IMG/VR virus record: IMGVR_UViG_3300036781_000236
Coordinates: 1 to 64,000 of that record
Source: a virus
Direction: 5' to 3' (one strand)
Length of the DNA stretch: 64,000 bases
Shown one piece after another: positions 5,428-56,928 of this stretch (positions within the stretch are counted from its first letter, which is position 1; the number at the start of each line of letters is the position of its first letter). The notes beneath the pieces were generated by a model, which saw only the letters and a list, made by a program, of their open reading frames with translations, made no database searches and was not told the origin of the DNA. Both the position numbers and the translations under genes were made by a program.

Positions 5428-5458
5428 TTCGTATAGCTGGTTTGTCACGCGGGCGTGA
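5428..5458 (-). promoter_or_regulatory. Composite palindrome + TATACGA element
   Basis: On the minus strand: the 14-bp palindrome TCACGCCCGCGTGA, 4 bp, then CCAGCTATACGAA. TATACG fits a -10 box and TCACGC lies exactly 17 bp upstream, in -35 position. It would drive the gene at 4986-5405. The palindrome also supplies the stop codon of 5445-6056. Confidence 0.6.
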
Positions 5459-6056
5459 GGCTTGAGTCGAGCGACACGCGCAACGCGCGCACCCATTCCG
5501 TCCTTGTGCGGCACCGCTCGATCTCGTCGTCACGGCTCCCACGGGCACGCAGCAGCGTCGCCTTCGCGTGCATGATCTCCGTGTCACGCACGACACCCAC
5601 TGGACGCTCGAACGGATCGGGGTAGGAGCCGTCACCGCAGTCGAACTCGATGGATGACTTGATCTGATCCACCATGAACTCGCGCAGCCCATCATGCTCG
5701 TCGGTAGGCGGCACCCACGCCTGCGCCTGCGCGAGCATCGCCTCGTACCTCACCCGCCGCTCTCCCTCCTCCACCGAGTGCTTGCGGTGCAACTCGGTCT
5801 CCTCCGCGACACGGCTCGTCTCGAACTCACGCCACTGGTCTAGCGTCCACCCTTCCAGTTCACGAAGCCGTGCCTCCGCCTTCGTGACGTTCTCCTCGTA
5901 GTACGGGGACGGCTCAAACACGTCTGGCACCTCAGCCTCTGTGGGGTCGTCGCGCATCGTGGCAAGTGCGCCGAACGCGCGGGCGCACTCCATCGCGAAG
6001 TCCGCGAACGTCTGCGGCTCCCCCTCGTACAACTTGGCGGTGTATCCGGTAGGCAC
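5445..6056 (-). CDS. Conserved phage-type protein, 203 aa
   Basis: Begins MPTGYTAKLYEGE with GTG at 6056 after AAAGGAG. Mostly charged helix (residues 50-110 likely coiled coil). I recognise this kind of protein from actinobacterial phages but know no function. Ends LTPA-stop inside the palindrome. Confidence 0.7.
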   Translation of the reverse strand: MPTGYTAKLYEGEPQTFADFAMECARAFGALATMRDDPTEAEVPDVFEPSPYYEENVTKAEARLRELEGWTLDQWREFETSRVAEETELHRKHSVEEGERRVRYEAMLAQAQAWVPPTDEHDGLREFMVDQIKSSIEFDCGDGSYPDPFERPVGVVRDTEIMHAKATLLRARGSRDDEIERCRTRTEWVRALRVSLDSSLTPA

Positions 6057-6070
6057 ATCTGCTCCTTTCG

Positions 6071-6139
6071 TTAGCCGCGCCTGCGGCCGTTAGGGGTCAA
6101 CGCGACGATCACGAGCAACACGACGACGACCCACACCAT
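6071..6139 (-). CDS. 22-aa membrane peptide
   Basis: Overlaps the upstream stop codon (TGATG). One hydrophobic segment (MVWVVVVLLVIVALTP) and a basic tail. Too short for most gene finders; supported by position and coupling. Confidence 0.5.
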   Translation of the reverse strand: MVWVVVVLLVIVALTPNGRRRG

Positions 6140-6348
6140 CACGCTGCCTCCGCTTCCTGCTCCTCGAACACCGACCGCTGAGTGGCATTGCATGCGTCCA
6201 TCCACCTGGCGCGCGACTCGACCACCCACCGCAGCTGACGCACCGCCGCCGAGATCGCGCGCCGCTGCTCCCCGGTGAGTCCAGCGAGCGCCTGCTCCGC
6301 GTCGTTCGCGGCAGCCAGCGCCGCCTGAGCATGCTTGTCCGTGGTCAT
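6139..6348 (-). CDS. Hypothetical protein, 69 aa
   Basis: Helical protein (QAALAAANDAEQALAGL) with ATGA overlap to the gene above. No family recognised. Confidence 0.65.
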   Translation of the reverse strand: MTTDKHAQAALAAANDAEQALAGLTGEQRRAISAAVRQLRWVVESRARWMDACNATQRSVFEEQEAEAA

Positions 6349-6677
6349 CTCGCCGCTTTCGCGAATCCCTCGTTGAGCCGTGCGACCTTCGCGACGAATG
6401 GCTCCAGCGGCTTGACGAACGCGACCGCAAAATCGCGCATAGCGCAGTCCACGAGCATCACCTGCGCGGTCATGTCTCCGCGCTTGGCAGCGAGCCGGAG
6501 CGCGAGACGGAACTCATCCTCGCGTACTTCACCCCACCCGCGCGTTGCCGTCTGGAACGCCTGCGCGTCCTCGCGCCGGACACGGCGGGCGCTGCGCTTC
6601 CAGTCCCGCATCGACCACCACGCCAGCATCCCCGCGAACGGGAATACGACAACCGCGACCCACACCGTGTCGTTCAA
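6345..6677 (-). CDS. Membrane-anchored hypothetical protein, 110 aa
   Basis: TTG start overlapping the upstream TGA (TTGA). Residues about 5-24 are a membrane segment (VWVAVVVFPFAGMLAWW), followed by basic and helical cytoplasmic sequence. The frame extends further upstream but that part overlaps real genes. Confidence 0.6.
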   Translation of the reverse strand: MNDTVWVAVVVFPFAGMLAWWSMRDWKRSARRVRREDAQAFQTATRGWGEVREDEFRLALRLAAKRGDMTAQVMLVDCAMRDFAVAFVKPLEPFVAKVARLNEGFAKAAR

Positions 6678-6859
6678 TACTCCTCCTTCTCGTTCGCGAA
6701 GTCGATTCGCGACTGCTTGATGTTGTTGCCGTGCGCCACAAGACTCCCGTACTCGATGACATCGCCGTCGTAGAGAGTGTTGAGCAGATCGAGAAGGGTC
6801 TCTTCGAGAATGTTCACGCGCGCAACCAGCGCGGGAACATTGACCTCCCCACCATTCAT
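6674..6859 (-). CDS. Hypothetical protein, 61 aa
   Basis: Acidic helical protein with a leucine-rich stretch (NILEETLLDLLNTLYDG). ATGA overlap with the gene above. Confidence 0.65.
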   Translation of the reverse strand: MNGGEVNVPALVARVNILEETLLDLLNTLYDGDVIEYGSLVAHGNNIKQSRIDFANEKEEY

Positions 6860-7200: not shown

Positions 7201-7206
7201 GTCTCC

Positions 7207-7571: not shown

Positions 7572-7801
7572 GACGCCTCGTTCTGTTCGGTGTTCTCGAT
7601 GATGAAGCGTGCATTGTTGATTCGGACGAGGGCCTGGTTGAAGCAGGAACGGGCCTCATCCACATAGATACGAGCTTCGTCGTCCAGTGTCAGATACTGC
7701 GTGAGAACCTCCGCTGCGCGCGCAGCGCTCTCCGCTGTATCAGCCAGATCGGTGAGTTCACCGAGAGCGATCTGCGATTGAAAGGCCATGCCGTAGCTCA
7801 T
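7568..7801 (-). CDS. Hypothetical protein, 77 aa
   Basis: Helical protein (ALGELTDLADTAESAARAAE). ATGA overlap with the first gene of the operon. Confidence 0.65.
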   Translation of the reverse strand: MSYGMAFQSQIALGELTDLADTAESAARAAEVLTQYLTLDDEARIYVDEARSCFNQALVRINNARFIIENTEQNEAS

Positions 7802-8136
7802 CGAATCAACACGCGCTGGTCGTCAGCCCAGTCGTACAGACCGTCGAGAACAACATTGAAGTGCCCTGCGTCCGCGTTCTCGTCTCCATCCACGAAACCG
7901 ATGGTGTGAAACTCATCGCTTATCTGCTCGATCTCGTCATCCTCGGCCCACATGCCGTTGAAGGCTTCGATGCGGTACTTCTCAAGCCTCTCGTGGAGAG
8001 TGCGCGCCGCCATAGCGGTCACGGCAGGACTGTCCTCGTCCCCAAGGAGATCTTTCACATGGAAGGAGGTGCGCCACCCGCTGTGGGTGACCGACGGCTC
8101 CGTCTGCCACTTGGATTCTTTCATCTTGTTGGACAT
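7798..8136 (-). CDS. Hypothetical protein, 112 aa, first gene of leftward operon
   Basis: Acidic protein with no recognised domain. ATG preceded by GGAGGTAGC. First gene behind the promoter at 8174-8202; likely among the earliest leftward products. Confidence 0.7.
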   Translation of the reverse strand: MSNKMKESKWQTEPSVTHSGWRTSFHVKDLLGDEDSPAVTAMAARTLHERLEKYRIEAFNGMWAEDDEIEQISDEFHTIGFVDGDENADAGHFNVVLDGLYDWADDQRVLIR

Positions 8137-8158
8137 CTGCTACCTCCGTGTTCGTGGT

Positions 8159-8202
8159 GATCGTGACTCCCCAAGACTACATACCCTGCTATACGAAGTC
8201 AA
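8159..8202 (-). promoter_or_regulatory. Strong leftward promoter with conserved spacer and start
   Basis: -35 TTGACT (8197-8202), 17-bp spacer containing TTCGTATAGCAGG, -10 TAGTCT (8174-8179), then TGGGGA and GTCACGATC (8159-8167). The same spacer and start sequence occur in the rightward promoters at 33689 and 42189. A palindrome copy lies just upstream at 8215-8228. Confidence 0.85.
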
Positions 8203-8214
8203 GGGTGGGTTGCA

Positions 8215-8228
8215 TCACGCTCGCGTGA
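8215..8228. repeat. Palindrome copy upstream of leftward promoter
   Basis: TCACGCTCGCGTGA, a copy of the dispersed palindrome with TC in the centre, 12 bp upstream of the -35 box. A second TATAGCAGG follows on the plus strand (8231-8241). Confidence 0.6.
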
Positions 8229-8402
8229 CCCATATAGCAGGCTGTTTGCTTTCGGGCGCACCAGTGTGTAACAATCCACGCTTTCCCCCGTCACCTAGCA
8301 AGGGAGGGCCGACCAGAAGGAACCAGCAAGCCGATGGGCGCGCGTTGAGGAGGAGGCACCGCAACAACACGCGGCGCGCGCACCCTTCGACACTGGAGGC
8401 AA

Positions 8403-8858
8403 ATGAAGCCCCGTGTTCTCACAATGATCGCCGCCGCTGTCACGGCGCTAACACTGACAGCCACCACACAAGCAGCACCCAGCACCACCGCACCGCCCGC
8501 CACGGTCATCGCCGCCGCGCTCTGCATCCACGACGGCTACCACTACGCGACCCACTGGCAACCAGGCACCCACCTCACCTACACCCTGTACGGCCACGGG
8601 TTCTGGCGCACCACCAAGACGTGGTCCAACGGAGAAGGCTCGTGGACAGGAACCGTCGGGTCGCTCTACGGTGGAGGATTGTCGTTTACGTTGGGCACCT
8701 GGAACCGCGCAGGCGCGCCCTACGCATCCAGCGTGCAGGCCATCGCGCAAGCATCACCCACCGAACAGATACGCAGGCTAGTTCTCATCGTGGCCGGGGA
8801 CGGCGGCTCCTACCGTGAGTGGCCCACCACTGGCCGCGCCTGCAACCTCCCGATGTAA
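8403..8858 (+). CDS. Exported Rpf-like / transglycosylase-type protein
   Basis: 151 aa. Residues 1-25 form a signal peptide (MKPRVLTMIAAAVTALTLTA, cut after TQA). The C-terminal part (NGEGSW, SLYGGGLSFTLGTW, AWPT-like YREWPTTGRAC) follows the order of resuscitation-promoting-factor/lysozyme-like domains, with Glu of GEGSW as probable catalytic residue. Such domains cleave peptidoglycan. GGAGG precedes the ATG. It is one of few rightward genes and ends at a strong hairpin. Could act in lysis, cell-wall entry or host resuscitation; which one is not decidable here. Confidence 0.75.
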   Translation: MKPRVLTMIAAAVTALTLTATTQAAPSTTAPPATVIAAALCIHDGYHYATHWQPGTHLTYTLYGHGFWRTTKTWSNGEGSWTGTVGSLYGGGLSFTLGTWNRAGAPYASSVQAIAQASPTEQIRRLVLIVAGDGGSYREWPTTGRACNLPM

Positions 8859-8937: not shown

Positions 8938-9360
8938 ATGGCACCCTCCCAAGTTGTGGGACAACGCCGAGCCGACGCGAAAGCCCGCGACGCCTTCGTC
9001 GTCCACAGCGACCCCCTCTCCACCCTCCTGCATGGCTTCGTCACCTCATGGGAGAAGTCACGCCCGCGTGAGACCGGAGGCAAGTTCATCTCCGGTAACC
9101 GCCGACAGGAGATCGTCCCCATCAGCCCCGTCGCATGGTTGGAAACTGAGTCAGGTGTCAGCCGTCACCAGATCAGCAACATCCTACGACGCCGCACAAG
9201 GTTCACTGAGCTACGGGTAGCCGACAGCCTCGTAGCGGCGGTGGGACGGCCTGACGCGTTCTACGACGGCACGTTAGACGTGATCGAGAACCCGCACGCT
9301 TCGCGCGCCACACGCGATGTGGAAGCACAGCAGTCCCTCACAGGGAACGGGGCGCTCTAA
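8938..9360 (+). CDS. Putative HTH DNA-binding protein
   Basis: 140 aa. Residues about 70-110 (LETESGVSRHQISNILRRRT) look like a helix-turn-helix of the type found in actinophage regulators, followed by ADSLVAAVGRPDAFYDG. No ribosome site before the ATG, so the start is uncertain. Ends tail-to-tail with the leftward membrane genes. A candidate binder of one of the dispersed motifs, by position only. It contains a palindrome copy at 9058-9071. Confidence 0.55.
   Translation: MAPSQVVGQRRADAKARDAFVVHSDPLSTLLHGFVTSWEKSRPRETGGKFISGNRRQEIVPISPVAWLETESGVSRHQISNILRRRTRFTELRVADSLVAAVGRPDAFYDGTLDVIENPHASRATRDVEAQQSLTGNGAL
9058..9071. repeat. 14-bp palindrome copy (TCACGCCCGCGTGA)
   Basis: Exact copy inside the HTH gene, encoding SRPR. 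Confidence 0.5.
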
Positions 9361-10164: not shown

Positions 10165-10170
10165 CAGTAG

Positions 10171-14169: not shown

Positions 14170-14183
14170 TCACGCCCGCGTGA
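14170..14183. repeat. 14-bp palindrome copy between tail genes
   Basis: TCACGCCCGCGTGA in the 41-bp gap between two leftward minor tail genes. Confidence 0.6.
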
Positions 14184-22067: not shown

Positions 22068-22807
22068 CGGTTCGTCAGGTGGTCGAGGAGTCCCGACTCG
22101 GTCGGCTTCACAGCCTCACCTGCGACACCCATGACCGCTGCGCCAGCGTCGCCCATCACGTCAACAGACGACATTGATACGGACGACCTCAGGGTGCTTG
22201 TTGCCATGCTCACCGATGCCATCGTCCGAGCCACGCTGTCGCTGCTCGCGGCCATGAAGTAGCCGTTCTGGCCGGAGTACCCGACATTCGCCATCGTCCC
22301 GACGTACTCGCTGGACTGGCCGAGACCGAGGTACACGAACGTCCAGTTCCCCTTCGCCTCGTACTCCCGCACCAGCGCAGCCAGTGACTCGGCGGTGTAG
22401 TCCGTGGACATGTTCTCCGCGCCATCCGTCATGGTCACGACAAGCACCTTCGAGTCCTGCTTCCCCTCACGGGCGACGCGCGCTTCCAGATCCTTCACCG
22501 TGAACGCGATGGCGTCATACAGCGCTGTGCCACCACCAATCCGGTACGTCTTCCCGGTCAACTGCTCGACCTCAGCGAGCGGCGCACCGACGTACACCTG
22601 CTCGAACTCCGTGTCGAACAGCGTCAGCGACAACAGCGTGTCGCCGTCCTGCTCCCGCAGGTCGTTCACGTACTCGTTGAACCCGTCGATCACGGACCCC
22701 GCGAGGTGGCCCATCGAGCCAGACTTGTCGAGGATCATCGCGACCGCGAGATCCGTCGATGCCTTCTTCTTGCGCCGAGGCTTCGCAGGCGCGCTCGTGC
22801 TACTCAT
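22064..22807 (-). CDS. von Willebrand factor A domain protein
   Basis: 247 aa. Complete MIDAS metal site: DKSGSM (DxSxS) near residue 30, GGTALYDAI (Thr) near 93 and TMTDGAEN (Asp) near 130. The lysine-rich N-terminus (PRRKKKAS) may bind nucleic acid or membrane. vWA proteins bind partners through a metal; a role in DNA, capsid or chaperone (MoxR-type AAA+) complexes is possible, and an AAA+ gene occurs at 37824-39929. ATG at 22807 overlaps the XRE gene's stop. Confidence 0.8.
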   Translation of the reverse strand: MSSTSAPAKPRRKKKASTDLAVAMILDKSGSMGHLAGSVIDGFNEYVNDLREQDGDTLLSLTLFDTEFEQVYVGAPLAEVEQLTGKTYRIGGGTALYDAIAFTVKDLEARVAREGKQDSKVLVVTMTDGAENMSTDYTAESLAALVREYEAKGNWTFVYLGLGQSSEYVGTMANVGYSGQNGYFMAASSDSVARTMASVSMATSTLRSSVSMSSVDVMGDAGAAVMGVAGEAVKPTESGLLDHLTNR

Positions 22808-23084
22808 CGGTTGGTACCTCACCTTCGGTTGTGGTTCGGGACGCGAACGACGCCACAGCCTGTGTGAGCGATTCCAACCTGTCCGTAGATACTGGACGCG
22901 TGTTCGCTTCGATCTGGCACAAGTACGCAGGGCTGATGCCCGCAGCAGCAGCCACAGAGTTCTGACTCGCGCCAACCGCGAGGCGCGCGTTGCGTATCAC
23001 GCTGCCGGATGTGCTCTCTAGCCGTTCCAGCTTTTTGCGCTGCGCGGCCAGATCGAGGAGTTCAAGCAGAGGGCGTTCGTTCAT
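22800..23084 (-). CDS. XRE-family HTH regulator
   Basis: 94 aa. Residues 29-75 form a Cro/C1-type helix-turn-helix (IRNARLAVGASQNSVAAAAG then ISPAYLCQIEANTR). The promoter and an inverted repeat overlap its start, so it probably represses itself. Candidate immunity or lysogeny regulator, though no integrase is seen. Coupled to the vWA gene. Confidence 0.8.
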   Translation of the reverse strand: MNERPLLELLDLAAQRKKLERLESTSGSVIRNARLAVGASQNSVAAAAGISPAYLCQIEANTRPVSTDRLESLTQAVASFASRTTTEGEVPTDE

Positions 23085-23998: not shown

Positions 23999-24029
23999 TC
24001 ACGCCCGCGTGAGAGGCCAGCTATACGAA
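23999..24029 (+). promoter_or_regulatory. Composite palindrome + TATACGA element in tRNA array
   Basis: TCACGCCCGCGTGA (23999-24012), 4 bp, CCAGCTATACGAA (24017-24029), same layout as the other five copies. On the plus strand it points away from the leftward tRNAs, so it may act as an operator or antisense promoter. Confidence 0.55.
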
Positions 24030-25683: not shown

Positions 25684-25714
25684 TCACGCGGGCGTGACAG
25701 TCCTGCTATACGAT
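25684..25714 (+). promoter_or_regulatory. Composite palindrome + TATACGA element before tRNA-Leu
   Basis: TCACGCGGGCGTGA (25684-25697), 4 bp, CCTGCTATACGAT (25702-25714). TATACG as -10 has TCACGC exactly 17 bp upstream; tRNA-Leu begins 10 nt after TATACG. The clearest case for promoter function of this element. Confidence 0.7.
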
Positions 25715-25805: not shown

Positions 25806-25811
25806 CTTAGG

Positions 25812-32468: not shown

Positions 32469-32498
32469 TTGTCACGCGGGCGTGACGGCATGTATCCT
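32469..32498 (+). promoter_or_regulatory. Rightward promoter with palindrome in spacer
   Basis: TTGTCA (32469-32474), 18 bp, TATCCT (32493-32498). The palindrome TCACGCGGGCGTGA (32472-32485) overlaps the -35 box and spacer, as expected for a repressor or activator site. ATG follows 9 nt after the -10. Confidence 0.6.
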
Positions 32499-32507
32499 GC
32501 TATGCGA

Positions 32508-32867
32508 ATGTCGAGGAACATCGTTCATCCCGAGACGGCAGAGAGAAACCGCACGGTAGGTCTTCCTGGCGGTTACACCTTCAACTCCTACACGCCAGAC
32601 GACTACGAAGGCATCACGCTTTCGTTCGGATGCGTCAGGATCGGCGATCACGCGCACATCCTTGTTGAGTCAGGCCGCGTTCTAAGGATTGTCGCAGGTG
32701 ATAGCTGCCCGACCGCCAGAACTGGCGGCGCGGGAAAGCTTGTGTTGCGATGGCATGAATGGCTTGTGCTACGCGAGGTTTTGGACGCCGATCCTCGCAT
32801 CCGCATAGCTGAGATTGAGAAGCCAACCACCAAGATGGCGGCACGACACGCAGGAGGGAAGCAATGA
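32508..32867 (+). CDS. Hypothetical protein, 119 aa
   Basis: ATG 32508 close behind the promoter, so probably leaderless. Beta-rich (GITLSFGCVRIGDHAHILVE). ATGA overlap with the glycosyltransferase gene. No family recognised. Confidence 0.65.
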   Translation: MSRNIVHPETAERNRTVGLPGGYTFNSYTPDDYEGITLSFGCVRIGDHAHILVESGRVLRIVAGDSCPTARTGGAGKLVLRWHEWLVLREVLDADPRIRIAEIEKPTTKMAARHAGGKQ

Positions 32868-34581: not shown

Positions 34582-35289
34582 TCATCCAGGCCCGAGCGTC
34601 CAATCCACATACAGGGCGCAGTCATCCATGGGGAAGCACACGGCGACACGGCCTGGGTCCACACCCAATCGGTGCTTCTTCCCGAGCAGCGACTGCACCA
34701 GGTCGGGATGCTGCACGAGGGACGGGACCGACCCGAGCGGTGTCTCGCCGTGGTCGCGGAGGAACCTGCCGATGATCTCATCATCGGCGACGAACGACTC
34801 GGGCCACAGCTGTTCGTCCACATAACGGAGCAGGGGGTGGATGAGCCGCACGGGCCAGCACGTAGCTACGGCGCTACACCAACGTGCGGTGGTGAGTTCC
34901 GCCCACGACACCCCTCGGGCGCACGCGCGCTCCATCGCCTGCTTATGCTCGTACGGGTTCCCGCTCACGTGGAACACGAGGACCCTGTCCGGCCTCGCCA
35001 CTATCGCAGCGACCAGGGCTTCCGTGAAGCCCTGACATAGCTCACCGTCGTCCTGCACGACCATGCGGTGCGTCGGTGCGCCTGCGTTCGTGAATCCGCA
35101 CCCGAACCCTGGTGTCGCCTCAAGCACGGCACGGTAGGTGCGCCACGGCGACCGGCGCGGATGATCGGGGGTCGGGTCGAACACCACGTCCGCGCCTGTA
35201 GCGGCGGCGAGTGCAGCGGCCATGTCAGCGCGTGCGGGCGACGCTTGTATCCCGATGCTAACCCTCAACCCAACGTTTAGGTCTATCAC
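34582..35289 (-). CDS. Glycosyltransferase-like protein (GT25-type pattern)
   Basis: Up to 235 aa. N-terminus LRVSIGIQASPARADMA, central RMVVQDDGELC (acidic metal site), then GSVPSLVQHPDL. The GTG at 35289 lies inside the palindrome; a TTG at 35268 (before RVSIGIQ) is an alternative start. Confidence 0.65.
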   Translation of the reverse strand: MIDLNVGLRVSIGIQASPARADMAAALAAATGADVVFDPTPDHPRRSPWRTYRAVLEATPGFGCGFTNAGAPTHRMVVQDDGELCQGFTEALVAAIVARPDRVLVFHVSGNPYEHKQAMERACARGVSWAELTTARWCSAVATCWPVRLIHPLLRYVDEQLWPESFVADDEIIGRFLRDHGETPLGSVPSLVQHPDLVQSLLGKKHRLGVDPGRVAVCFPMDDCALYVDWTLGPG

Positions 35290-35316
35290 GCGCGCGTGAC
35301 GGGCCTGCTATAGCAA
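35286..35316 (+). promoter_or_regulatory. Composite palindrome + TATAGCA element
   Basis: TCACGCGCGCGTGA (35286-35299), 4 bp, CCTGCTATAGCAA (35304-35316). It overlaps both the end of the structural gene and the start of the GT gene. Confidence 0.5.
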
Positions 35317-37012: not shown

Positions 37013-37552
37013 CTACGTCTCGGTGATCGACTCAGCCCCAGACACAATCTGGGGAGTGTCACCGGGGTTGATCGCTGTGCTAGTGATAGAGCACCAGTAC
37101 AGGATGTTTCCGCTCGATGCTGCGTCTAGGATCGCGAAGTAGGTGACGGTCTGCAACGACCCAGCGTTCGTGCCGAACGTGATCGCGACGCTGTTTGTCG
37201 TCGCCGACCCCGCGGTCGAGGTGCTGTAGTTCGACGTGTTCGCGGTGACCGCTACACGGGCGTACCCTGTGTAGGAAGCCTCACCGCTCGAAGCGCCCGT
37301 AGACGACGCCGACAGCGCCGATGTCCACAACGCCTGGTAGAGCGTCGCGGGTGGCGTGTATGTGGTGGCGTTGAAGATCGCGTTCAGCAGCTTGCTGACC
37401 AAATATTGGCTCTTGCCCGTCACCCACCGCACGAGGTCGCGGAGACCTGTAGAGGTCGGCTTGAACACCACCGCGCCGCCCGTCACGCGGGCGTGATAGA
37501 CCCGGCCGTCGCGGCCGTGCCACACCAACCCGTCCAGCGATACAGCGGTCAC
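37013..37552 (-). CDS. Virion structural protein, 179 aa
   Basis: Residues about 65-179 (TLYQALWTSALSA, EASYTGYARVAV, TYFAILDAASSGNIL) match a widespread phage beta-domain found in tail-fibre or decoration proteins. GTGA overlap upstream. A palindrome copy lies in the coding sequence (VYHARV). Confidence 0.65.
   Translation of the reverse strand: MTAVSLDGLVWHGRDGRVYHARVTGGAVVFKPTSTGLRDLVRWVTGKSQYLVSKLLNAIFNATTYTPPATLYQALWTSALSASSTGASSGEASYTGYARVAVTANTSNYSTSTAGSATTNSVAITFGTNAGSLQTVTYFAILDAASSGNILYWCSITSTAINPGDTPQIVSGAESITET
37483..37496. repeat. 14-bp palindrome copy (TCACGCGGGCGTGA)
   Basis: Exact copy near the 5' end of the 37013-37552 gene. Confidence 0.5.
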
Positions 37553-37827: not shown

Positions 37828-39929
37828 GTGGCGTCCTCGGTGACGTAGGACTTCGCGCCGGTTTCAGCGTCGTACTCCACCCGGACACGACGCGCAGACG
37901 CAGCAACAGGCTCAGGGGTCGTGACATGCACATCGACCTGGGCGGCTGGGACATGAACGTCGATTTTCTGCTCAGGCACGTTCACGATGATAGGCGAAGG
38001 CTCCGCCGCCGCCTGCTCCGGCACATGCACCGTGACGTTCGCGACAGGAGCGGGCTGCACAGGCATGTGAACGTCGAAGCGTGGCTCCACCTTCGACCCC
38101 TCCACCGTCACCGCCAAATCGTGCTGTGGGACGTGAACGTGGATGTCGCCAAGTTGGGGCGCTGCGGGTGCAGGACGCGAGGCGAACTCGCGAAGCACCC
38201 CGAGCGCCGTCAATGCCAATGCGTCCCCGGTGCCGTGCGTGCGCTCCGTATGCGCAGACGCGACGAGGGACGCGATCCCTTCCGTGGTTGCCTTGTGAGA
38301 CGCCGCGAGTGCTTCGATACCGGCGCGCAACGCAGGTGACTCCGCTACGTGCGGCAGCGACGCGACGAGCGCCGACACGTCTGGGGAATCAGAGAGAAGG
38401 TTCTGTGTGTCCCCTTCGAGTTCGAGCGGCTGCGTGGCGAGTTCCAGAAGCGTCGCGAACTCAACCTCAGCGGCCGTCTCGTCGGCCTGCTGCTTCTCCT
38501 CCGCTTCCTCCGCGATCCACCGCTCCACATTCGGGAGCGTGAACACGCCTTCGTCGCCTCCTTCCACCCGCGCGGCCACATCGGAGTGGATAGGCTCCGC
38601 GAGTTCAAGGTGCCAGTACTGCAACGCTTGGTCGACGGGATCGAATCCTGTCTCCTGCCCTTCGAGGACACGGTCTTCCTCGTGCTCTGCCCAGTAGGCG
38701 TTCAAGGCTTCCTGGGCGTCCACGGCGATCTCTTCGATCATCACGCCAGCGTGAACATCATGGGCGGCCGCGACCATAGCTTCGTCGTCTGTGGTGATTG
38801 CTTCCGCACCATTGTTCTTGCGTGCGTACAACTCCGCGAGGGTCGCGCCTTCCACGGCGTCCTCACCAGCCCATGCTGCTACTTCGTCGGCGGTCATCGG
38901 CAGGAACTCGATCTGCGACGCGCACCGTCCCGGCCGGGTGACGGCAGGATGCAGCGTCCCGAGTTCGTCGTTCGTCGTGACCAGCGCGAGTACCCGGAGG
39001 CCCTGCCCGATCATGCCGTCCACTACGTTCAGGAGCCGCGACAGTCCCTGCCCGTACTTCTCCTTCGCGGTAGCGGACAGCAGCTCCCCCGTGTCTTCCA
39101 GGATGAGGACACGCCACTTCCCGAGCGGGTTGCTTTCCGCGTACACGTCGCCGCTGACGGGTTCGAGCATGTCGTAGCTGTCCGCGAGCAGCACGTTGAT
39201 CATGTAGGAGGGGTCGTCCACGAAGAACGAGTCGGGGTCGGTGATGTAGTGGAACTCGGCCCACGGTGCCCACTGCGACGCAAGCGCCCGGAGCGCCCAC
39301 GACTTCCCTGTGCCGGGCTGTCCCTGCCAAAGCAGCAGCTGGCCGTCAACCGTCTCGGGTGCGTCCCACGCCATGAGCGACCCGAGCGAGTCACGGACAT
39401 GGGAGGTGTAGTTCTGCTCGATGTCGCCCCACTGTGCGGACTCCACACGACGGAGGCGCGGGATAGGGCCGTGCTTGCTGTTCGCCCAGAACGTGATCGG
39501 GACGGTCGCGTTGTCCTGCGTCAGATACGACGCGGGATACGCCTGCCTGAATGCAGCGCATGCGGTGTCTACCTGCGTCTGACTGTCTCCTGCGACGCGC
39601 ACATTGAACCAACCGTCCCCGATGCTGATAAGCGCGAGCGCACCGCTGTTTGTCGCTACAACCGCCGATCCCCTGTCTACGAACAGCACGTTCTTGGACG
39701 GAAGCCCTGCGCTACTAGCTTCGATAGGCCACGAGTCGCCGCCCCAAACCGGCGACTCCCTCTGCAACGCGTGCTCCTTGAAGAACTTCTCCGCTGCTCC
39801 GCCGTACAACATGTCGTACGTCGGGAGCATCGCTGGGGCCGCAGCCGTGAGGCTACGGAACGCGGCACGGCGACGCTGCGAAAGCGTGCGCGGCTGCCGC
39901 TGCCCGACCTTCACACTGGCGCGACCCAC
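37824..39929 (-). CDS. AAA+ ATPase within the head gene cluster
   Basis: 701 aa. N-terminal domain (about 1-170) resembles that of Streptomyces DUF5925-type ATPases. AAA+ module: Walker A GQPGTGKS near residue 204, Walker B RVLILED near 270, sensor 1 LVTTNDE near 315, arginine finger VTRPGR near 328. The C-terminus has five or more VHVP/VNVP strands (GDIHVHVPQHDLAV; IIVNVPEQKIDVHVP). GTG start 3 nt after the protease gene. May remodel capsid or portal proteins or host targets; head modules rarely carry such a gene. Confidence 0.85.
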   Translation of the reverse strand: MGRASVKVGQRQPRTLSQRRRAAFRSLTAAAPAMLPTYDMLYGGAAEKFFKEHALQRESPVWGGDSWPIEASSAGLPSKNVLFVDRGSAVVATNSGALALISIGDGWFNVRVAGDSQTQVDTACAAFRQAYPASYLTQDNATVPITFWANSKHGPIPRLRRVESAQWGDIEQNYTSHVRDSLGSLMAWDAPETVDGQLLLWQGQPGTGKSWALRALASQWAPWAEFHYITDPDSFFVDDPSYMINVLLADSYDMLEPVSGDVYAESNPLGKWRVLILEDTGELLSATAKEKYGQGLSRLLNVVDGMIGQGLRVLALVTTNDELGTLHPAVTRPGRCASQIEFLPMTADEVAAWAGEDAVEGATLAELYARKNNGAEAITTDDEAMVAAAHDVHAGVMIEEIAVDAQEALNAYWAEHEEDRVLEGQETGFDPVDQALQYWHLELAEPIHSDVAARVEGGDEGVFTLPNVERWIAEEAEEKQQADETAAEVEFATLLELATQPLELEGDTQNLLSDSPDVSALVASLPHVAESPALRAGIEALAASHKATTEGIASLVASAHTERTHGTGDALALTALGVLREFASRPAPAAPQLGDIHVHVPQHDLAVTVEGSKVEPRFDVHMPVQPAPVANVTVHVPEQAAAEPSPIIVNVPEQKIDVHVPAAQVDVHVTTPEPVAASARRVRVEYDAETGAKSYVTEDAT
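38741..38754. repeat. Degenerate palindrome copy
   Basis: TCACGCCAGCGTGA inside the AAA+ gene; one arm base pair intact pattern with CA centre. Confidence 0.4.
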
Positions 39930-45064: not shown

Positions 45065-45078
45065 CTGGACGCCCAACC

Positions 45079-45273
45079 CTAAACCTCTACTTGACCCTCA
45101 TCACGCGGGCGTGATTCGCCCATCACCGCAGCCTGCAACCGGCGAAGCTCGGATGCCTTCACCACTTCCTCGCCACCAGACTCGTCCCACGCCAATGCGC
45201 CGCCATGACCGCGCTGCTCTTTGACGACAGCCTCGGCGTTCGCGCAACGCGTCTCACGTGTCATGTCCATCAC
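45079..45273 (-). CDS. Hypothetical protein, 63-64 aa
   Basis: GTG 45273 or ATG 45270. Acidic helical protein; the palindrome at 45101 falls in its last codons (ESRPRDEG). Confidence 0.55.
   Translation of the reverse strand: MMDMTRETRCANAEAVVKEQRGHGGALAWDESGGEEVVKASELRRLQAAVMGESRPRDEGQVEV
45101..45114. repeat. 14-bp palindrome copy (TCACGCGGGCGTGA)
   Basis: Exact copy, 37 bp upstream of the MuF gene start. Confidence 0.55.
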
Positions 45274-48069: not shown

Positions 48070-48083
48070 TCACGCCCGCGTGA
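48070..48083. repeat. 14-bp palindrome copy (TCACGCCCGCGTGA)
   Basis: Intergenic, between the stop of 48088-48453 and the next gene. Confidence 0.6.
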
Positions 48084-49260: not shown

Positions 49261-49406
49261 GAGAGGATGTTCTGCCACTGGGGGCACCAGTCCAACCGGC
49301 AACACCGCACCTTGAGGTACAGGTGCAGCCCGAGCGGCCCAGCCCACAGGTGCAGGCCGGGGCTTCCGTAGCGGGGACGTGAGACGCTGAAGAACGGTTC
49401 ACTCAT
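49257..49406 (-). CDS. Hypothetical protein, 49 aa
   Basis: MSEPFFSVSRPRYGSPGLHL, ending in Cys/Trp-rich sequence (CCRLDWCPQW). The composite element overlaps its start, so its mRNA may be leaderless. Confidence 0.55.
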   Translation of the reverse strand: MSEPFFSVSRPRYGSPGLHLWAGPLGLHLYLKVRCCRLDWCPQWQNILS

Positions 49407-49436
49407 TCGTATAGCTAGCTTACCACGCGGGCGTCA
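49406..49436 (-). promoter_or_regulatory. Composite element, degenerate palindrome
   Basis: On the minus strand TGACGCCCGCGTGG, 4 bp, CTAGCTATACGAA running into ATG. Same 4-bp gap as the other five copies. Confidence 0.5.
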
Positions 49437-50655: not shown

Positions 50656-50840
50656 TTCGACATCTTGTACGTTAGGACAGATCCGATGATGGCACCGCAC
50701 CCTGCTAGTACAAGCATGAGAGACAGAGGCCACGCCCCTACCTGATGGTTCCCATCCACGATCATCGTCGGTAACGCCACAGGGAGCGCTGCCCAGTATG
50801 TCCCCATCAGAAATCCCCACAGGACGAAGCATGTTCTCAT
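50652..50840 (-). CDS. Two-helix membrane protein, 62 aa
   Basis: Membrane segments at about 5-28 and 36-57 (WPLSLMLVLAGCGAIIGSVL). ATGA overlap upstream. Confidence 0.6.
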   Translation of the reverse strand: MRTCFVLWGFLMGTYWAALPVALPTMIVDGNHQVGAWPLSLMLVLAGCGAIIGSVLTYKMSK

Positions 50841-51313: not shown

Positions 51314-51909
51314 GCGTGGTTCCTGCGGAAGATGAGGCCGGTGTCGCGGAAGTAGTTCGTCGCGCGGCCGTTCAACGCTGCGAGTCGTCGCGCGTTTTCG
51401 GTGTTCTCCTCATCGAACCGGAACCCTGCGGCGGCGAACGCACCGATCCAGTAACTATCGGGCTGAAGGTTCACGTGATGCCACCCTGCCTGCCCCGGCA
51501 CCGCATGCGTTACCGCGACAGTGTGAGCCTGACACATGGTGCGCATGACGTTCGGGAGGTACTGCTCCTCGATGTGCTCCAGGAACTCGCAGCACCAGAT
51601 CGTCCCGTACGTATCACAGCGGAATGGACCATGCGTGAAGTCGTGCTGGTAGATACGGATGCGGTCGAATGGCATCCCGTCGACCCCTTCGGAGTAGAGA
51701 CCGAGACTTGAGAACGCATCGACGGCTACCCCGTCGCCGCACCCAACGTCGAGCAGGCGTGTGTTGCGGCGCTCTTTCGCGTCCTCCGCGATCCACGCCC
51801 AGAGTTCTGGGTAGATACAGTCCTTGTCGCCAGTTTCGACGTAACCGCCGAGGTGGCCGTCCACGACCATCACGTGCTCGTCGGAGACCGGGATACGCTC
51901 CACCGTCAC
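51310..51909 (-). CDS. SAM-dependent methyltransferase
   Basis: 199 aa class I fold. Motif I RLLDVGCGDGVAVDAF near residue 50, IWCCEFLEHIEEQY as acidic loop and motif post-II. Small-molecule or sugar methylation is likely from the glycosyltransferase context. Confidence 0.8.
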   Translation of the reverse strand: MTVERIPVSDEHVMVVDGHLGGYVETGDKDCIYPELWAWIAEDAKERRNTRLLDVGCGDGVAVDAFSSLGLYSEGVDGMPFDRIRIYQHDFTHGPFRCDTYGTIWCCEFLEHIEEQYLPNVMRTMCQAHTVAVTHAVPGQAGWHHVNLQPDSYWIGAFAAAGFRFDEENTENARRLAALNGRATNYFRDTGLIFRRNHA

Positions 51910-52196
51910 GCGGCACCAACCAACGGCTTACCGTAGCGTTCCCACACGGCCTGCGACCAAGGGTCAGTAGCGGTGCCGTCCTGCTGCTTCATCTGTCCGT
52001 CCTGGAAGACGTTGAGAGGTAGGACGCCCTTGATACCGGGGCGCTTCAGCACACGACCTGCTGTTACCAAGGACTCGACGCTCACGTCGGGGGTTGTATC
52101 GAGGAGCACGCGTCGCACCCGAACCGTCCAGCCGCAGCCACTCCAAATCGACCCGACCTCAGGAAGCGCGTCAGCGTCCATCAGTGCCTCCGTCAT
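51906..52196 (-). CDS. Hypothetical protein, 91-96 aa
   Basis: Strands (GSIWSGCGWTVRVRRVLL) and a C-terminal WSQAVWERYGKPL. ATG 52196 or 52181; the latter fits the usual short overlap. Confidence 0.6.
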   Translation of the reverse strand: MTEALMDADALPEVGSIWSGCGWTVRVRRVLLDTTPDVSVESLVTAGRVLKRPGIKGVLPLNVFQDGQMKQQDGTATDPWSQAVWERYGKPLVGAA

Positions 52197-52644
52197 GGCG
52201 GATTACGCTCACGTCCGACACAAGCGCCTCCATCTCCTCCGGTGATATACGCACAACCTGCGTAGCAGGAGTGACTCGCGGCGGTCCTTCTAGCGCTTTG
52301 AGCAGCAATGCTGCCTCCGCTGGTTTCACCATCGCGGAGAACTCCCCTGACTCCACCGCCCACCTGAGTTTCGCAACCACGTTCGCGAGTTCGCTGATGG
52401 CGTTCGGCGAACCGGAGCGAGCGGCATCCTCACGGGTAGCCGCAGGCATCGCAAGAACTGCCGTCCCCGATGGCCTCGTAAGCCCCTCCGGTTCGCGCAA
52501 CGCCACCTCGCGCTCAAGCTCATCGATCCGCGCTGCCGCCTGAACCATCAACGCACGGTCATCCATCAAGAAGACCTGGAGGTCGCGGTTCGCGCGCTCC
52601 CGCAGCAGCTCGCGCAACGTCGCTGGTGCCTCACCCCCGAACAC
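52171..52644 (-). CDS. Coiled-coil hypothetical protein, 157 aa
   Basis: GTG 52644 after GAGGAG. Long helix (AARIDELEREVALREPE) suggests a coiled coil. No family recognised. Confidence 0.6.
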   Translation of the reverse strand: MFGGEAPATLRELLRERANRDLQVFLMDDRALMVQAAARIDELEREVALREPEGLTRPSGTAVLAMPAATREDAARSGSPNAISELANVVAKLRWAVESGEFSAMVKPAEAALLLKALEGPPRVTPATQVVRISPEEMEALVSDVSVIRHDGGTDGR

Positions 52645-52858
52645 TGGTGCTCCTCGGTTTGACGCGAACGTTGCTGCCGAAGTAGTCGCGGTCGCGGCGC
52701 ATCCGTGCGGTGAGCGGTCCGCGTGGGTGCTCATCTAGATGTTCGATCCTGCTGCGATAGTCCGACACCGCCCACGTCTGACCGAACAGGGCTGCCCCGG
52801 CGATGTTGCTCTCATAGAGACGGCGAAGTTCGCTGCGTACGGAATGGCGGACGCTCAT
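52631..52858 (-). CDS. Hypothetical basic protein, 75 aa
   Basis: ATGA overlap upstream. Arg-rich (SVRHSVRSELRRLYESN; TARMRRDRDYFGSN). Confidence 0.6.
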   Translation of the reverse strand: MSVRHSVRSELRRLYESNIAGAALFGQTWAVSDYRSRIEHLDEHPRGPLTARMRRDRDYFGSNVRVKPRSTSVRG

Positions 52859-53166
52859 GCCGCCACCTCGCCGCAGAAGTCGTGGCCGTCCTGTGTCGGC
52901 AAGTAGTGCCACGACGCCGACCATGCCGTCCACTCACGCCACACCAACCCACGCGATGCGAGCACGCCGAGCGTACGTCCCACCGCTGAAGGCGTCAGCT
53001 TCCGGTAGCGCATTTGGTCTATGTCGTCGGCGCGTTCCGCTGCGTCACGAATAAGCCAGCCGAGTACCGCCAACGCTTCGATGGGGTGCCCTGTATCCTT
53101 CGCGCACAAAGCGCGCAGCACGCTCTCCTGTAGACGCGTGAGAGGCGGTATTGTCGCGTCAGCCAC
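52855..53166 (-). CDS. Winged-helix-like protein, 103 aa
   Basis: TRLQESVLRALCA, SAVGRTLGVLASRGLVWRE and a following hairpin resemble a MarR/winged-helix fold. GTG start. May be a DNA-binding regulator of this operon. Confidence 0.55.
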   Translation of the reverse strand: MADATIPPLTRLQESVLRALCAKDTGHPIEALAVLGWLIRDAAERADDIDQMRYRKLTPSAVGRTLGVLASRGLVWREWTAWSASWHYLPTQDGHDFCGEVAA

Positions 53167-53401
53167 GGTAGTCCCCTCCGTCGCCGCCGTCGTTGCGGAT
53201 GCCGTTCACGTAGGCGATCTCGTGCTCGACTCCGATGAAGCCGCCGTCGCCTGGATCACGACGTAGCGAGATCGAGCTGCCGTCACCCGCGAACAGGATC
53301 AGATCGCGCGGCCAGTTCTTAGCCAGGCGCTTCAGGCCACGTACGATGCGCTTCTCGTCCTCAGTGAGCACGTCGAAGTCCTCTGGCTCCACAAAATACA
53401 T
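53159..53401 (-). CDS. Hypothetical protein, 80 aa, leaderless
   Basis: ATG 53401 lies 7 nt after the -10 box, so no room remains for a ribosome site. TEDEKRIVRGLKRLAKNWPR is a helix; the end is Gly/Asp-rich. Confidence 0.65.
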   Translation of the reverse strand: MYFVEPEDFDVLTEDEKRIVRGLKRLAKNWPRDLILFAGDGSSISLRRDPGDGGFIGVEHEIAYVNGIRNDGGDGGDYRG

Positions 53402-53408
53402 TGCCCGC

Positions 53409-53437
53409 ATCGTATAGCAGGCTTCGGGTGGGGTCAA
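53409..53437 (-). promoter_or_regulatory. Leaderless leftward promoter
   Basis: TTGACC (53432-53437), 17 bp, TACGAT (53409-53414), 7 nt, ATG. Preceded by GGTTGAGAG, as at 62099; the -10 overlaps TCGTATAGCAGG. Confidence 0.8.
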
Positions 53438-53460
53438 CTCTCAACCAACACCCGAGACTT

Positions 53461-53474
53461 TCACGCGGGTGTGA
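53461..53474. repeat. Palindrome variant at a stop codon
   Basis: TCACGCGGGTGTGA, one change; supplies TGA to the methyltransferase gene (ends PVTPA-stop) 24 bp upstream of the leaderless promoter. Confidence 0.6.
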
Positions 53475-54108
53475 CAGGCCACGCAACGGTGCAGATCACG
53501 TCACGGTCGTACTCGTCGCGGTAGCTCATCTCACCGCTCGGCGCGAGCGGTAGCACCGTCCTGTCTTCCGTGAGGTCGACCGTCCAGATAGACGTGCCCC
53601 CCGGGACATGCAGCCGCTCAATCCCGAACACGGCGTTGACGGCTTCGGCGACTCCTGGGAACCCTGCGCCCTCACCGGGGTAGTAGTCGTGTCCGCACAA
53701 CAGCCTCCGGGTTTTCGGGAGCCAACCTGCGATGTCCGCCAACACCGCCTCGTAAGTGTGGGCACCGTCGATGAAACACATATCCACGTCCGGCACGTCC
53801 ACGGCGACAGCGGGGCTGAGGCCACGTACAGCGTGGAGGTTCGCGAACCTGCCGCAGTGCCCCATGAAACTCCCGAACGACACGTCATGCTCGTCGTCCC
53901 ATGTGTCGATGCACCACACTGGCCCCTTGCATCCGGTGAGAAGCGCGGTGGACGAGCGGCCGTGCAAGCAACCGATCTCGGCAACGCTCCCCATCGTTTC
54001 CGCGGTGGCGCGTAGCCACCTCAGTTCGATATCTGACATCCACCCTGGCACGTCGAGTCCGGCCACGTCGGTGCCGTAGGTTGGTTCGGGTCCCATGATC
54101 GGAGTCAC
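53461..54108 (-). CDS. Class I methyltransferase (Methyltransf_24-like)
   Basis: 215 aa. SVAEIGCLHGRSS is the SAM-binding motif, DMCFIDGAHTYEAV the acidic metal/active-site region. This family often methylates sugars. GTGA overlap with the GT gene upstream. Confidence 0.8.
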   Translation of the reverse strand: MTPIMGPEPTYGTDVAGLDVPGWMSDIELRWLRATAETMGSVAEIGCLHGRSSTALLTGCKGPVWCIDTWDDEHDVSFGSFMGHCGRFANLHAVRGLSPAVAVDVPDVDMCFIDGAHTYEAVLADIAGWLPKTRRLLCGHDYYPGEGAGFPGVAEAVNAVFGIERLHVPGGTSIWTVDLTEDRTVLPLAPSGEMSYRDEYDRDVICTVAWPVTPA

Positions 54109-54842
54109 AGCAGCCTGCTCCTTGTCGGTGGTGGTTTCGCGGCGACCATCGCCGTCATCGGCTCGAAGTCACCTTCGAGCGCGCTGCCTGCCGCTTCGAT
54201 GTAGGCGGTCGCGAGTCGCGCCTGTTCGGGTGCGTGCTCGTGGAGGTTCTCTTCCTGGTCGCCGCGAGGATGCCACAAATGCACAGCCGCACCGGGGTAG
54301 CGGCGCACCGTCCCGTAGATGGCGTTCAGCGCGAGCGCCAACGCGACATCGTCGGGGCCGTGACCGACGAACCGTTCGTCCGCGCCACCGACCTGCCAGA
54401 ACGCGGCAGCCGGGACGATCACCAACCCTGACCAGCAAATCTTCTCCCCGATCCACTCCACGTTCGTGTGGTCGAACGTCACCTTGTCGCGGCCGTCCAT
54501 GAAGGTGTCGGTGGCGTGCTCGCGTAGCTGGACGTACCGTTCCGGTAGCCGCCACACACCGTCTGCCACGGTCGCTTCGACAGCGTTCCGGAACGCGGCT
54601 GCGTCGTCGGGAACGGTGTCTGCGTCCACGATCACCAGTACGCTCCCCGATGCTTGCGATGCGGCGATGTTGATCGCCTGCCCGTGGTTGAACAGTCCGT
54701 CGTGCTGGTGGAGGTCGTCAGCGACGATCGCTTCCACCCCGAGTGCCGCGTGCGCGACGGCCTCGACGTAACTGAACAGGCGGTCCCGGTGTGGGTCACC
54801 GGGCCGGTACGGGATCACGACCGACGCGTCCAAGGACGACAC
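54105..54842 (-). CDS. Glycosyltransferase (galactosyltransferase-like)
   Basis: 245 aa from GTG 54842. SVVIPYRPGDPHRDRL, VLVIVDADTVPDD (DxD) and GHGPDDVALALALN, the C-terminal acidic motif of Glyco_transf_7C proteins. HLWHPR closes the domain, as in the next two GT genes, so these are paralogues. Confidence 0.82.
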   Translation of the reverse strand: MSSLDASVVIPYRPGDPHRDRLFSYVEAVAHAALGVEAIVADDLHQHDGLFNHGQAINIAASQASGSVLVIVDADTVPDDAAAFRNAVEATVADGVWRLPERYVQLREHATDTFMDGRDKVTFDHTNVEWIGEKICWSGLVIVPAAAFWQVGGADERFVGHGPDDVALALALNAIYGTVRRYPGAAVHLWHPRGDQEENLHEHAPEQARLATAYIEAAGSALEGDFEPMTAMVAAKPPPTRSRLL

Positions 54843-54843
54843 G

Positions 54844-55551
54844 TTAGACGGGGAGGCAGAGGAGGTTGCCCCACCCATCCGACACTTCTCCGTGCGACAG
54901 GTTCGCGGCGTCCAACGCTGCCTCCACCGTCGCCTTGTACGTGTCACGGGCGTCACCGTCGAACATCGGGGCGTGCGTCGCCAACATCACCGGGACACGC
55001 AGGGTGGCAAGGAACGGGGCGGCTTGCGGCAGAATCGCCTCCTCCCCACCCTCCACGTCGATCTTCACCAGGGAACACGCCCCAAGACCGAACCGCTCGA
55101 ACAACCCTTCCAGGGTGAGCGCGGGCACCTCGACACGGTCGGTAGCGTGGAGCATGCTCGACATCGAATCCCCCAACGCACCCAACGGGTGACGGCCGAT
55201 CCACCCGGTGCCTGCCTCCGCACCGACCATGCCTTCCCACACTGTGATATCGGCGTCGTTCCAGTTGGCGTGCTCGCGCAGTTGGTGGCACGCGACGGGG
55301 TCTGGTTCGACGGCGTACACCTTCGCCCCGAGCTTGGCGGCGTACAGGCTGACGGGGCCGATCCACGCACCAACGTCCACGAGCACGTCCCCTGGTCGCA
55401 GCCGTTCGTTCAGGACACCGATGGTGTCTGTTTCCCAGGAGTGCTGGAACTGGTCCCAGAACGCGGCCTCGTGGGGTTGTCCGCTGTCGGCGTCAGGGTC
55501 ACGGACAGTGAAGATGTGGCCGTCACGGGTAACGGTGCGCCGCTCGCTCAT
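54844..55551 (-). CDS. FkbM-family methyltransferase
   Basis: 235 aa. VLVDVGAWIGPVSLYAAKLG is the SAM site and SLVKIDVEGGEEAIL the family signature. FkbM enzymes O-methylate sugars and polyketides. It sits between two GT genes, with ATGA overlap, so it probably methylates the glycan they build. Confidence 0.85.
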   Translation of the reverse strand: MSERRTVTRDGHIFTVRDPDADSGQPHEAAFWDQFQHSWETDTIGVLNERLRPGDVLVDVGAWIGPVSLYAAKLGAKVYAVEPDPVACHQLREHANWNDADITVWEGMVGAEAGTGWIGRHPLGALGDSMSSMLHATDRVEVPALTLEGLFERFGLGACSLVKIDVEGGEEAILPQAAPFLATLRVPVMLATHAPMFDGDARDTYKATVEAALDAANLSHGEVSDGWGNLLCLPV

Positions 55552-56225
55552 GGCGTCACGGTACCGTCGAGGACTGCCCGCATCTTCTCACGGGAGCCGC
55601 GGGACGCGAGATAGAGACGGCCAAGCGCTTGGTTTGCTGCATGCGCTGGGTGCCCTTCGCGGCTCTCCCACACACGAGGATGCCACAGGTGATAGACGGG
55701 GCCAGGGATGCGTTGGTGTCCGCCGCCCATCACGTCGCAGGCAGCGAAGAACGCCCAGTCGTCCCAGCCCCACCCGGCGAGTCGTTCATCGAACCCGCCT
55801 ACGTCGTCCCACAAGCTGCGTGGCACGGCGAGCGCGGACGAGTACGTGTTCTTCTCGGTGCGTTCAACCATGAACTCATCGATCTTCCAGCCGCCCTGCA
55901 ACCGTGCCGTGCCCTGCTGCGACAGATCCCGGATCTCGCTATGGGCGAACGTCAGTTGTCCTGTCTCGCGGGCGCGTGCGACGGCATCGACGTACTGGAG
56001 GTGCTCCCCCAAGATCACGTCGCCGTCGATGATGAGCGCTACGTCCCAGTCACCTGCTTCCACGGCCGCGGTGTTGATCGCTTTGCCGCGGTTGAACAAC
56101 CCATCCGTGTCGTGCCCTTCGATGATGGGCCACCCGAGCCACGCCCACCACTCCCTCGTGAACTCCCATAGCCGGTCGCGGTGCCCACCATCGGGACGCC
56201 AGGGAACAAGGATCGGGACGGTCAA
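55548..56225 (-). CDS. Glycosyltransferase (galactosyltransferase-like)
   Basis: 225 aa from TTG 56225 (TTGA overlap). PILVPWRPDGGHRDRLWEF, ALIIDGDVILGEH (DxD), GFDERLAGWGWDDWAFF and HLWHPR. Close in pattern to its neighbours. Confidence 0.82.
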   Translation of the reverse strand: MTVPILVPWRPDGGHRDRLWEFTREWWAWLGWPIIEGHDTDGLFNRGKAINTAAVEAGDWDVALIIDGDVILGEHLQYVDAVARARETGQLTFAHSEIRDLSQQGTARLQGGWKIDEFMVERTEKNTYSSALAVPRSLWDDVGGFDERLAGWGWDDWAFFAACDVMGGGHQRIPGPVYHLWHPRVWESREGHPAHAANQALGRLYLASRGSREKMRAVLDGTVTP

Positions 56226-56884
56226 CGGTGCTCCGCGAGGTACGCGAGGGTGGCGGCGCGGTCGAAGCGACGGTCGCGATAGTCGCGATACAAAGTATGG
56301 TTGCGCTCGTACAGGTCGTTCCCGCGCGTGACCCCCGGTGGGTTCGGGTGCCACAGGTGGCATACCGGCCCGTCGACCACACGGGGCGGACCGGCCAGAC
56401 CGTGCAGACACTCTAGGATGGCGCTGTCCTCAAGCCCGAAGCCGGTGAATCGCTCATCGAAGCCGCGGCTCTCTTCCCACAGGTCGCGGCGTACCCCAAG
56501 CAAGCTCACGCCCGTGAACGGGTTGACTGTCCATGCGTCCGCGTGTTCCAACTGGATCTCGCCGCTCAGGACACGCGGGGTGTCGTGCTCGGTGAGCATG
56601 CGGAAGTCGGTCGCTCCTGCGTACCCGTAGAAGTACGCCTCCTCCGCAACTTTGCTAGCGACCTCGGGTGGGCACGCGATCTCGGCGTCCGTCCACAGCA
56701 CCACGTCCCAGGACAAGTCATCGTCAGGCACGGCACGGTTCCGCGCGACTGACCAGTTGAAGTCACCGTCGCTGTCCCCGGTGTGCAACTCGTACCCCAT
56801 CTGCGTCCAGCGTGGGAGCGTGTACTCCCAGATCGAGGCGCGGTCCACGGTGGGACGAGCAGCGCAACACACCACGGCTTTCAC
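56222..56884 (-). CDS. Glycosyltransferase-like protein
   Basis: 220 aa from GTG 56884. FNWSVARNRAVPDDD, VVLWTDAEI, GFDERFTGFGLEDSAIL and HLWHP. The reading frame extends through the palindrome to 56917 but that part is regulatory sequence. Confidence 0.78.
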   Translation of the reverse strand: MKAVVCCAARPTVDRASIWEYTLPRWTQMGYELHTGDSDGDFNWSVARNRAVPDDDLSWDVVLWTDAEIACPPEVASKVAEEAYFYGYAGATDFRMLTEHDTPRVLSGEIQLEHADAWTVNPFTGVSLLGVRRDLWEESRGFDERFTGFGLEDSAILECLHGLAGPPRVVDGPVCHLWHPNPPGVTRGNDLYERNHTLYRDYRDRRFDRAATLAYLAEHR

Positions 56885-56897
56885 AGCAGCGACGCTA

Positions 56898-56928
56898 TCA
56901 CGCGGGCGTGATAGCACTGCTATACGAA
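56898..56928 (+). promoter_or_regulatory. Composite palindrome + TATACGA element
   Basis: TCACGCGGGCGTGA (56898-56911), 4 bp, ACTGCTATACGAA (56916-56928), in the 54-bp gap between two leftward GT genes. It points against the genes, so it may block or start antisense transcription. Confidence 0.6.

Follow-up and report, generated by a model that had tools for sequence, protein, structure and literature searches.

The stretch analyzed here is a 64,000-nucleotide window lying inside an 88-kb phage contig of IMG/VR (IMGVR_UViG_3300036781_000236, termed G000 herein), whose capsid, portal, and protease genes have matches in phages of Actinobacteria (Arthrobacter, Microbacterium, Gordonia, and Streptomyces). 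Scattered over the contig is a sequence of 14 letters, TCACGCNNGCGTGA, a perfect 6-2-6 palindrome with the half-site TCACGC, which is present in 22 exact copies and in 5 further copies with one mismatch; 16 of the exact copies fall in the window. At several places a TATACG-like box follows the palindrome at a constant distance, and an earlier reading based on the letters and open reading frames (the sequence-only reading) had taken palindrome and box together as a 31-bp regulatory element. Our comparison points instead to the palindrome, RTCACGCSSGCGTGAY, as the unit, probably an operator dispersed over the genome for a single phage-wide transcription regulator, with the gene at 8938-9360 as the candidate for that regulator.

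The number of palindromes is far above chance, with ≤0.05 exact copies expected in 88 kb and a mean of 0.00 to 0.03 per genome found after Markov shuffling of order 1, 3, and 5. Composite-like strings, of which 7 were observed, had a shuffle mean of 0.13 to 0.30 (maximum, 3), so that the chance pairing against which the sequence-only reading had warned does not account for them. Non-coding DNA makes up 16 to 17% of the genome, yet 13 of the 22 exact palindromes are mostly non-coding (P about 1e-5). A literature search with the palindrome sequence gave nothing relevant among the matches listed, and a likeness of TTCGTATAGCA to loxP was set aside as presumed chance.

Eight composites were found (class B sites), six in the window and two outside it, at 77906(+) and 72208(-). 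The six are where the sequence-only reading had placed them, and the distance from palindrome to box is constant as claimed; the gap, given there as 4 bp, actually measures 5 bp to CNGC, 7 bp to GCTATACG, and 9 bp to TATACG. The pattern is also less uniform than had been described, with two mismatches in the palindrome at 49406-49436 and a variant box at 35286 (Table 1). While the length of the spacer is fixed, its sequence varies (CAAACCAGC, GAGGCCAGC, CAGTCCTGC, CGGGCCTGC, TAAGCTAGC, TAGCACTGC, and GAACAGTGC), so the composites did not arise by duplication of a single block, and their arrangement points to protein geometry. The palindrome of the composite at 23999 begins 16 bp upstream of a minus-strand tRNA-Arg, and the one at 35286 has GGTTGAGGGTT on its opposite side, towards gene 34582-35223(-). 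At 77906, the predicted GTG start of a gene for a 752-amino-acid N6/N4 DNA methyltransferase (75651-77909(-)) lies within the palindrome.

The spacer from TCACGC to TATACG is indeed 17 bp, as first proposed, and TCACGC had on that ground been called a -35 element. By inspection, it is identical to TTGACA at 1 of 6 positions, so this designation is unwarranted and TCACGC merely occupies the -35 region. The assignment of TATACG as a -10 element fared better: the box of the composite at 25684 stands at the right distance before the tRNA-Leu gene at 25723, and start codons follow TATACG-like boxes after 8 to 9 nucleotides (nt) in genes at or near 53401, 62067, 68203, 72182, 79614, and 85456. A start codon shortly after the -10 is the pattern of leaderless transcripts in actinobacteria. 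These distances support TATACG as a -10 element, predicted to belong to host-type promoters, many of them with an extended TGC and many leaderless. The rule that the box is always a -10 was rejected, because four promoters (33694+, 42194+, 8197-, and 86614-) carry TTCGTATAGCAGG in the spacer of TTGAC(T/A)-17/18-TAnnnT, followed by a ribosome-binding site and ATG, with the 13 bp of the box read from the opposite strand. The corresponding stretches (33694-33720(+), 42194-42225(+), 8197-8160(-), and 86614-86550(-)) are near-identical promoter-leader cassettes ahead of small gene clusters, consisting mostly of CCCACCCTTGACTTCGTATAGCAGG, TAnnnT, a leader with GTCACG(A/G)TC, a ribosome-binding site, and ATG, and mostly without the palindrome. 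An overlapping pair of box-like sequences, inverted relative to each other, is found at 12113-12130 (TTCATATAGCTAAACGAA).

Of about 23 palindromes, only 8 have a box 9 to 10 bp away, and the palindrome also occupies other fixed positions near promoters; the constant 31-bp composite therefore does not hold as the unit, and the palindrome takes its place. The offsets of the -10 from the palindrome center cluster at 16.5/17.5 bp (8 sites), 51.5/52.5 bp (4 sites), and -14.5 bp (2 sites), corresponding to centers near -28, -63, and +3 when the first T of the -10 is counted as -12. At the four class A sites (53461, 62127, 68262, and 85517), the center lies 51.5 to 52.5 bp upstream of the first T of the -10, and the palindrome is followed after 13 to 15 bp by GGTTGAG(A)(G/C)TTG(A/C)C, in which GGTTGAG precedes a -35/-10 pair and a start codon that would suit a leaderless mRNA. 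In the best class A cases, this second element is an inverted repeat too (CTCRACCTNAGGTTGAG), giving two inverted repeats with centers about 20.5 bp apart. GGTTGAG at 13 to 15 bp past the palindrome was seen at nine sites in all, four with a -10 and five (15 bp, GGTTGAG-like) without a confirmed -10. The palindromes at 8215 and 63407 begin 2 bp downstream of a -10; at the former (8215-8228), a minus-strand -10, TATATG, is 2 bp away and a plus-strand TATACG box lies upstream of the operator.

These positions suggest how such a regulator might act. As a probable dimer of a small DNA-binding protein encoded by the phage, the regulator would bind operators standing beside the starts of transcription units throughout the genome. 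It would block RNA polymerase when bound near +3 or, over the -35 region, near -28, whereas near -63 it would act upstream of a complete promoter, with the inverted repeat CTCRACC-N3-GGTTGAG at a distance of two helical turns; intragenic sites could serve as roadblocks. By analogy with temperate phages with dispersed operators, we favor a repressor as the simplest single role for the -28 and +3 positions, and the -63 position leaves room for activation. A regulator that turns promoters on, replacing the -35 contacts in a MotA-like manner (polymerase appropriation) in class B and working as a class I activator at about -63 in class A, would fit the constant 9-bp spacing and the missing TTGACA-like -35 of class B, as well as the upstream operator pair of class A. 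However, the class A promoters already possess a good -35 and -10, the sites at 8215 and 63407 lie downstream of the -10 and several sites are intragenic, positions that suit repression, and no MotA-like protein was identified, so that we regard activation alone as unlikely. A distinctly doubtful variant is a geometry-coded switch, in which the same protein would repress where its operator covers the start or the spacer and activate at about -63 beside the second inverted repeat; if true, one operator would reprogram a whole genome of leaderless promoters and be rewritten in each lineage.

The operator is shared by related phages. In G022 (25 kb, collinear, about 50% protein identity), the palindrome is identical and has three exact sites, two of which (7637 and 11864) are in divergent promoter regions with leaderless plus-strand reading frames. 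The collinear G036 (83 kb) has 18 sites of the form T(A/C)ACGC-N2-GCGT(T/G)A, 12 of them with unlike halves (TAACGC paired with GCGTGA) and 8 mostly non-coding (P about 1e-3). In all three phages, an operator precedes the start of the major capsid gene by about 150 bp; the G000 operator region 32472..32508, with -10-like TATCCT and TATGCG, is orthologous to G022:7637 and G036:50492. A conserved capsid-gene leader (TAGCCGCC.AGCGCAA...), possibly forming a stem, is present in the three divergent phages at 32300-32480, G036:50340-50510, and G022:7470-7650. Among collinear phages, the half-site drifts from TCACGC (G000 and G022) to TAACGC/TCACGC (G036) and perhaps GCTACG. A palindrome that is shared by three collinear phages, drifts among them, and is tied to promoter geometry argues for the operator of one phage regulator, in agreement with the single sequence-specific DNA-binding system proposed in the sequence-only reading; the most likely form of this regulator is a repressor or master regulator encoded by the phage.

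The same sites bear on the idea that the palindromes are RNA hairpins, acting as transcription terminators or processing stems between transcription units. Many of them overlap a stop codon or separate tandem genes, and a stem with a 4-nt loop is possible. This idea is disfavored by the sites at divergent promoters, where transcripts do not end (8215 and 32472 in G000; 7637 and 11864 in G022), and by the 12 unlike-half sites of G036, which break a stem base pair and suit degenerate protein half-sites. The site contexts also lack the T tract of an intrinsic terminator, and the distance to the -10 boxes is fixed, making hairpins very improbable.

G002 (92 kb) carries a different 14-bp 6-2-6 palindrome, GCTACGNNCGTAGC, in six exact copies near gene starts, five of them mostly intergenic, and the 96-kb relative G040 has no such palindrome. 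Relatives found through TerL mostly lack the palindrome, and G036 came only from a capsid-based search. A general rule that relatives carry dispersed dyads was dropped after seven genomes, of which G000 was strong, G002 weak, and the rest not, with the exception of DSL-LC01, whose GGTCCA dyads possibly stem from repetitive collagen-like genes. Exact palindromes also occur in phages with little relation to G000: G034 has three copies and almost no homologous proteins, and G021 (IMGVR_UViG_3300046535_000869, 102 kb), with a single weak protein match to G000, has seven exact copies of TCACGCNNGCGTGA (about 0.05 expected), all within coding sequence.

Copies in such distant phages could mean that the phage exploits the operator of a host transcription factor, as alphaproteobacterial phages exploit CtrA (PMC9437464), and the phage itself offers only candidate regulators. 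We consider this quite improbable, since the half-site varies among closely collinear phages, as is usual for phage-encoded regulators, and all seven G021 copies are in coding DNA. Moreover, scanning 84,980 genomes of bacteria and archaea for the composite gave only three matches, two of them orthologous and all looking like coding-sequence matches; the exact composite scan of viral contigs gave no match outside G000. ParB-type partition, with centromere-like sites spread over a plasmid-like prophage, was also considered, as a ParB_N-like protein is encoded at 80107-80754(-) of G000 (L006:4107-4754). The match is weak, below the cutoff, and limited to the N-terminal domain, with no DNA-binding domain recognised; G040 has a homologue yet no palindromes, and centromeres are not expected to show fixed promoter geometry, leaving this explanation extremely unlikely. 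Homologues of the protein are encoded in G002 and G040, and G008 has a weak ParB_N match.

Among the phage genes, 8938-9360 is the leading candidate for the regulator, as judged from its correlation with the palindromes in four genomes. Homologues were found in G036 (45%) and G002 (41%), but not in G040; the G036 homologue has a site immediately upstream, and operator 8215 flanks the gene in G000. The adjoining gene 8403-8858(+), with a weak transglycosylase-like match, neighbors the candidate in G036 too. Of the three helix-turn-helix proteins that the sequence-only reading had suggested for binding studies, this one gained comparative support, and 22800-23084 proved to be a true XRE-type protein that is weakly conserved. 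The third, 24829-25680, is a poor candidate that looks HNH/homing-type (HNH_repeat and sigma-70 region-4-like matches).

Several observations weigh against a phage-wide operator read by this protein. About nine exact palindromes overlap coding sequence, and four of the eight composites face opposite to the adjacent other-strand gene, namely, 23999, 35286, and 56898 in the window, where the sequence-only reading had counted three such copies, and 77906 beyond it. The exact 9-bp composite spacing was not seen in the relatives. The candidate protein has no family match, its structure models are too low in confidence to use (pLDDT, 45 to 51), and its co-occurrence with palindromes comes from four long genomes. 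Furthermore, the 88-kb contig, which may be incomplete, yielded neither a phage integrase nor a serine recombinase, so that lysogeny is no more than a possibility.

Dispersed operators are known from other phages. In Cluster A mycobacteriophages (L5 and Bxb1), stoperators are short sites that are repeated genome-wide and drift in motif between related phages (PMC6550527); they lack symmetry, are recognized by a repressor in monomeric form, and in most cases point the same way with respect to transcription (PMC9283540, PMC6550527). G000 likewise has one short site across the whole genome that drifts among relatives, but its site is a symmetric palindrome without orientation, at fixed distances from -10 boxes that lie on either side of it. 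Its symmetry sets the G000 system apart from the stoperators. The phiC31 repressor of Streptomyces phages binds conserved inverted repeats dispersed near early promoters; these too are dispersed palindromic operators in an actinophage, whereas the G000 sites differ in sequence and are also found at late, structural, and tRNA genes. The C1 repressor of phage P1 controls separate units through many asymmetric operators scattered over about 90 kb, similar to G000 in having many operators and in genome size and unlike it in site symmetry, phage, and host group. T4 middle promoters combine a MotA box in the -30 region with a -10 only, as class B does, but the MotA box is not palindromic and occupies that position only, whereas the G000 site is a palindrome also found at about -63 and about +3.

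The coordinates of the features are collected in Table 1. In addition, glycosyltransferase, epimerase, and methyltransferase genes are clustered at 49822-63393(-).

Table 1. Predicted control elements and candidate regulator genes in G000
Feature	Position	Strand	Description
Composite	5428..5458	-	Operator, 9 bp, -10 TATACG; promoter of gene 4986-5405(-) with ribosome-binding site (aaggag)
Composite	23999..24029	+	Operator and TATACGAA box; antisense to tRNA-Ser
Composite	25684..25714	+	Operator and -10 TATACG; promoter of tRNA-Leu (25723-25806)
Composite	35286..35316	+	Variant box TATAGC; antisense to gene at 35308-36408
Composite	49406..49436	-	Degenerate palindrome TGACGCCCGCGTGG (two mismatches) and -10 TATACG
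Composite	56898..56928	+	Operator and -10 TATACG; antisense to gene 56939-57691; also upstream of gene 56222-56848(-)
Composite	72208	-	10-bp spacer, box TATATG; outside window
Composite	77906	+	9-bp spacer; outside window
Class A promoter	53410..53474	-	Operator (one mismatch), 14 bp, GGTTGAGAGTTGAC, -10 TATACG, leaderless start 53401
Class A promoter	62076..62140	-	Operator, 13 bp, GGTTGAGAGTTGAC, -10 TATACG, leaderless ATG 62067
Divergent control region	8187..8236	.	Operator 8215-8228; between genes 7798-8136(-) and 8403-8858(+)
Operator	32472..32508	+	Divergent region between capsid gene 30395-32320(-) and leaderless plus-strand reading frame (ATG 32508)
-10-like TATGTC and operator	63397..63420	+	First T 63399; 2 bp before operator 63407-63420; geometry as at 8215
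Operator	45101..45114	.	25 bp upstream of head gene 43400-45076(-); partial GGTTTAGGGTT element 15 bp downstream
Operator	1074..1087	.	Inside DnaB-like helicase gene
Operator	9058..9071	.	Inside candidate regulator gene 8938-9360(+)
Operator	14170..14183	.	Between genes 14204-15358(-) and 12762-14162(-)
Operator	37483..37496	.	Inside gene 37013-37552(-)
Operator	38741..38754	.	Inside gene 37824-39929(-); center CA, possibly fortuitous
Operator	48070..48083	.	Between genes 48088-48429(-) and 47731-48021(-)
Best candidate regulator gene	8938..9360	+	140 amino acids; homologues in long relatives with dispersed palindromes
Alternative candidate regulator	22800..23084	-	XRE/HTH_3 protein, 94 amino acids; weakly conserved

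Dispersed operators are no new principle, as L5, phiC31, and P1 illustrate; what is added is a new phage group for a known type of control. An uncultivated group of large actinophages thereby gains a predicted genome-wide circuit, comprising an operator, promoter classes, and a candidate regulator. Since the related phages have kept their gene order but drifted in operator (TCACGC, TAACGC, and perhaps GCTACG), they provide a natural series for testing how regulator specificity and immunity evolve.

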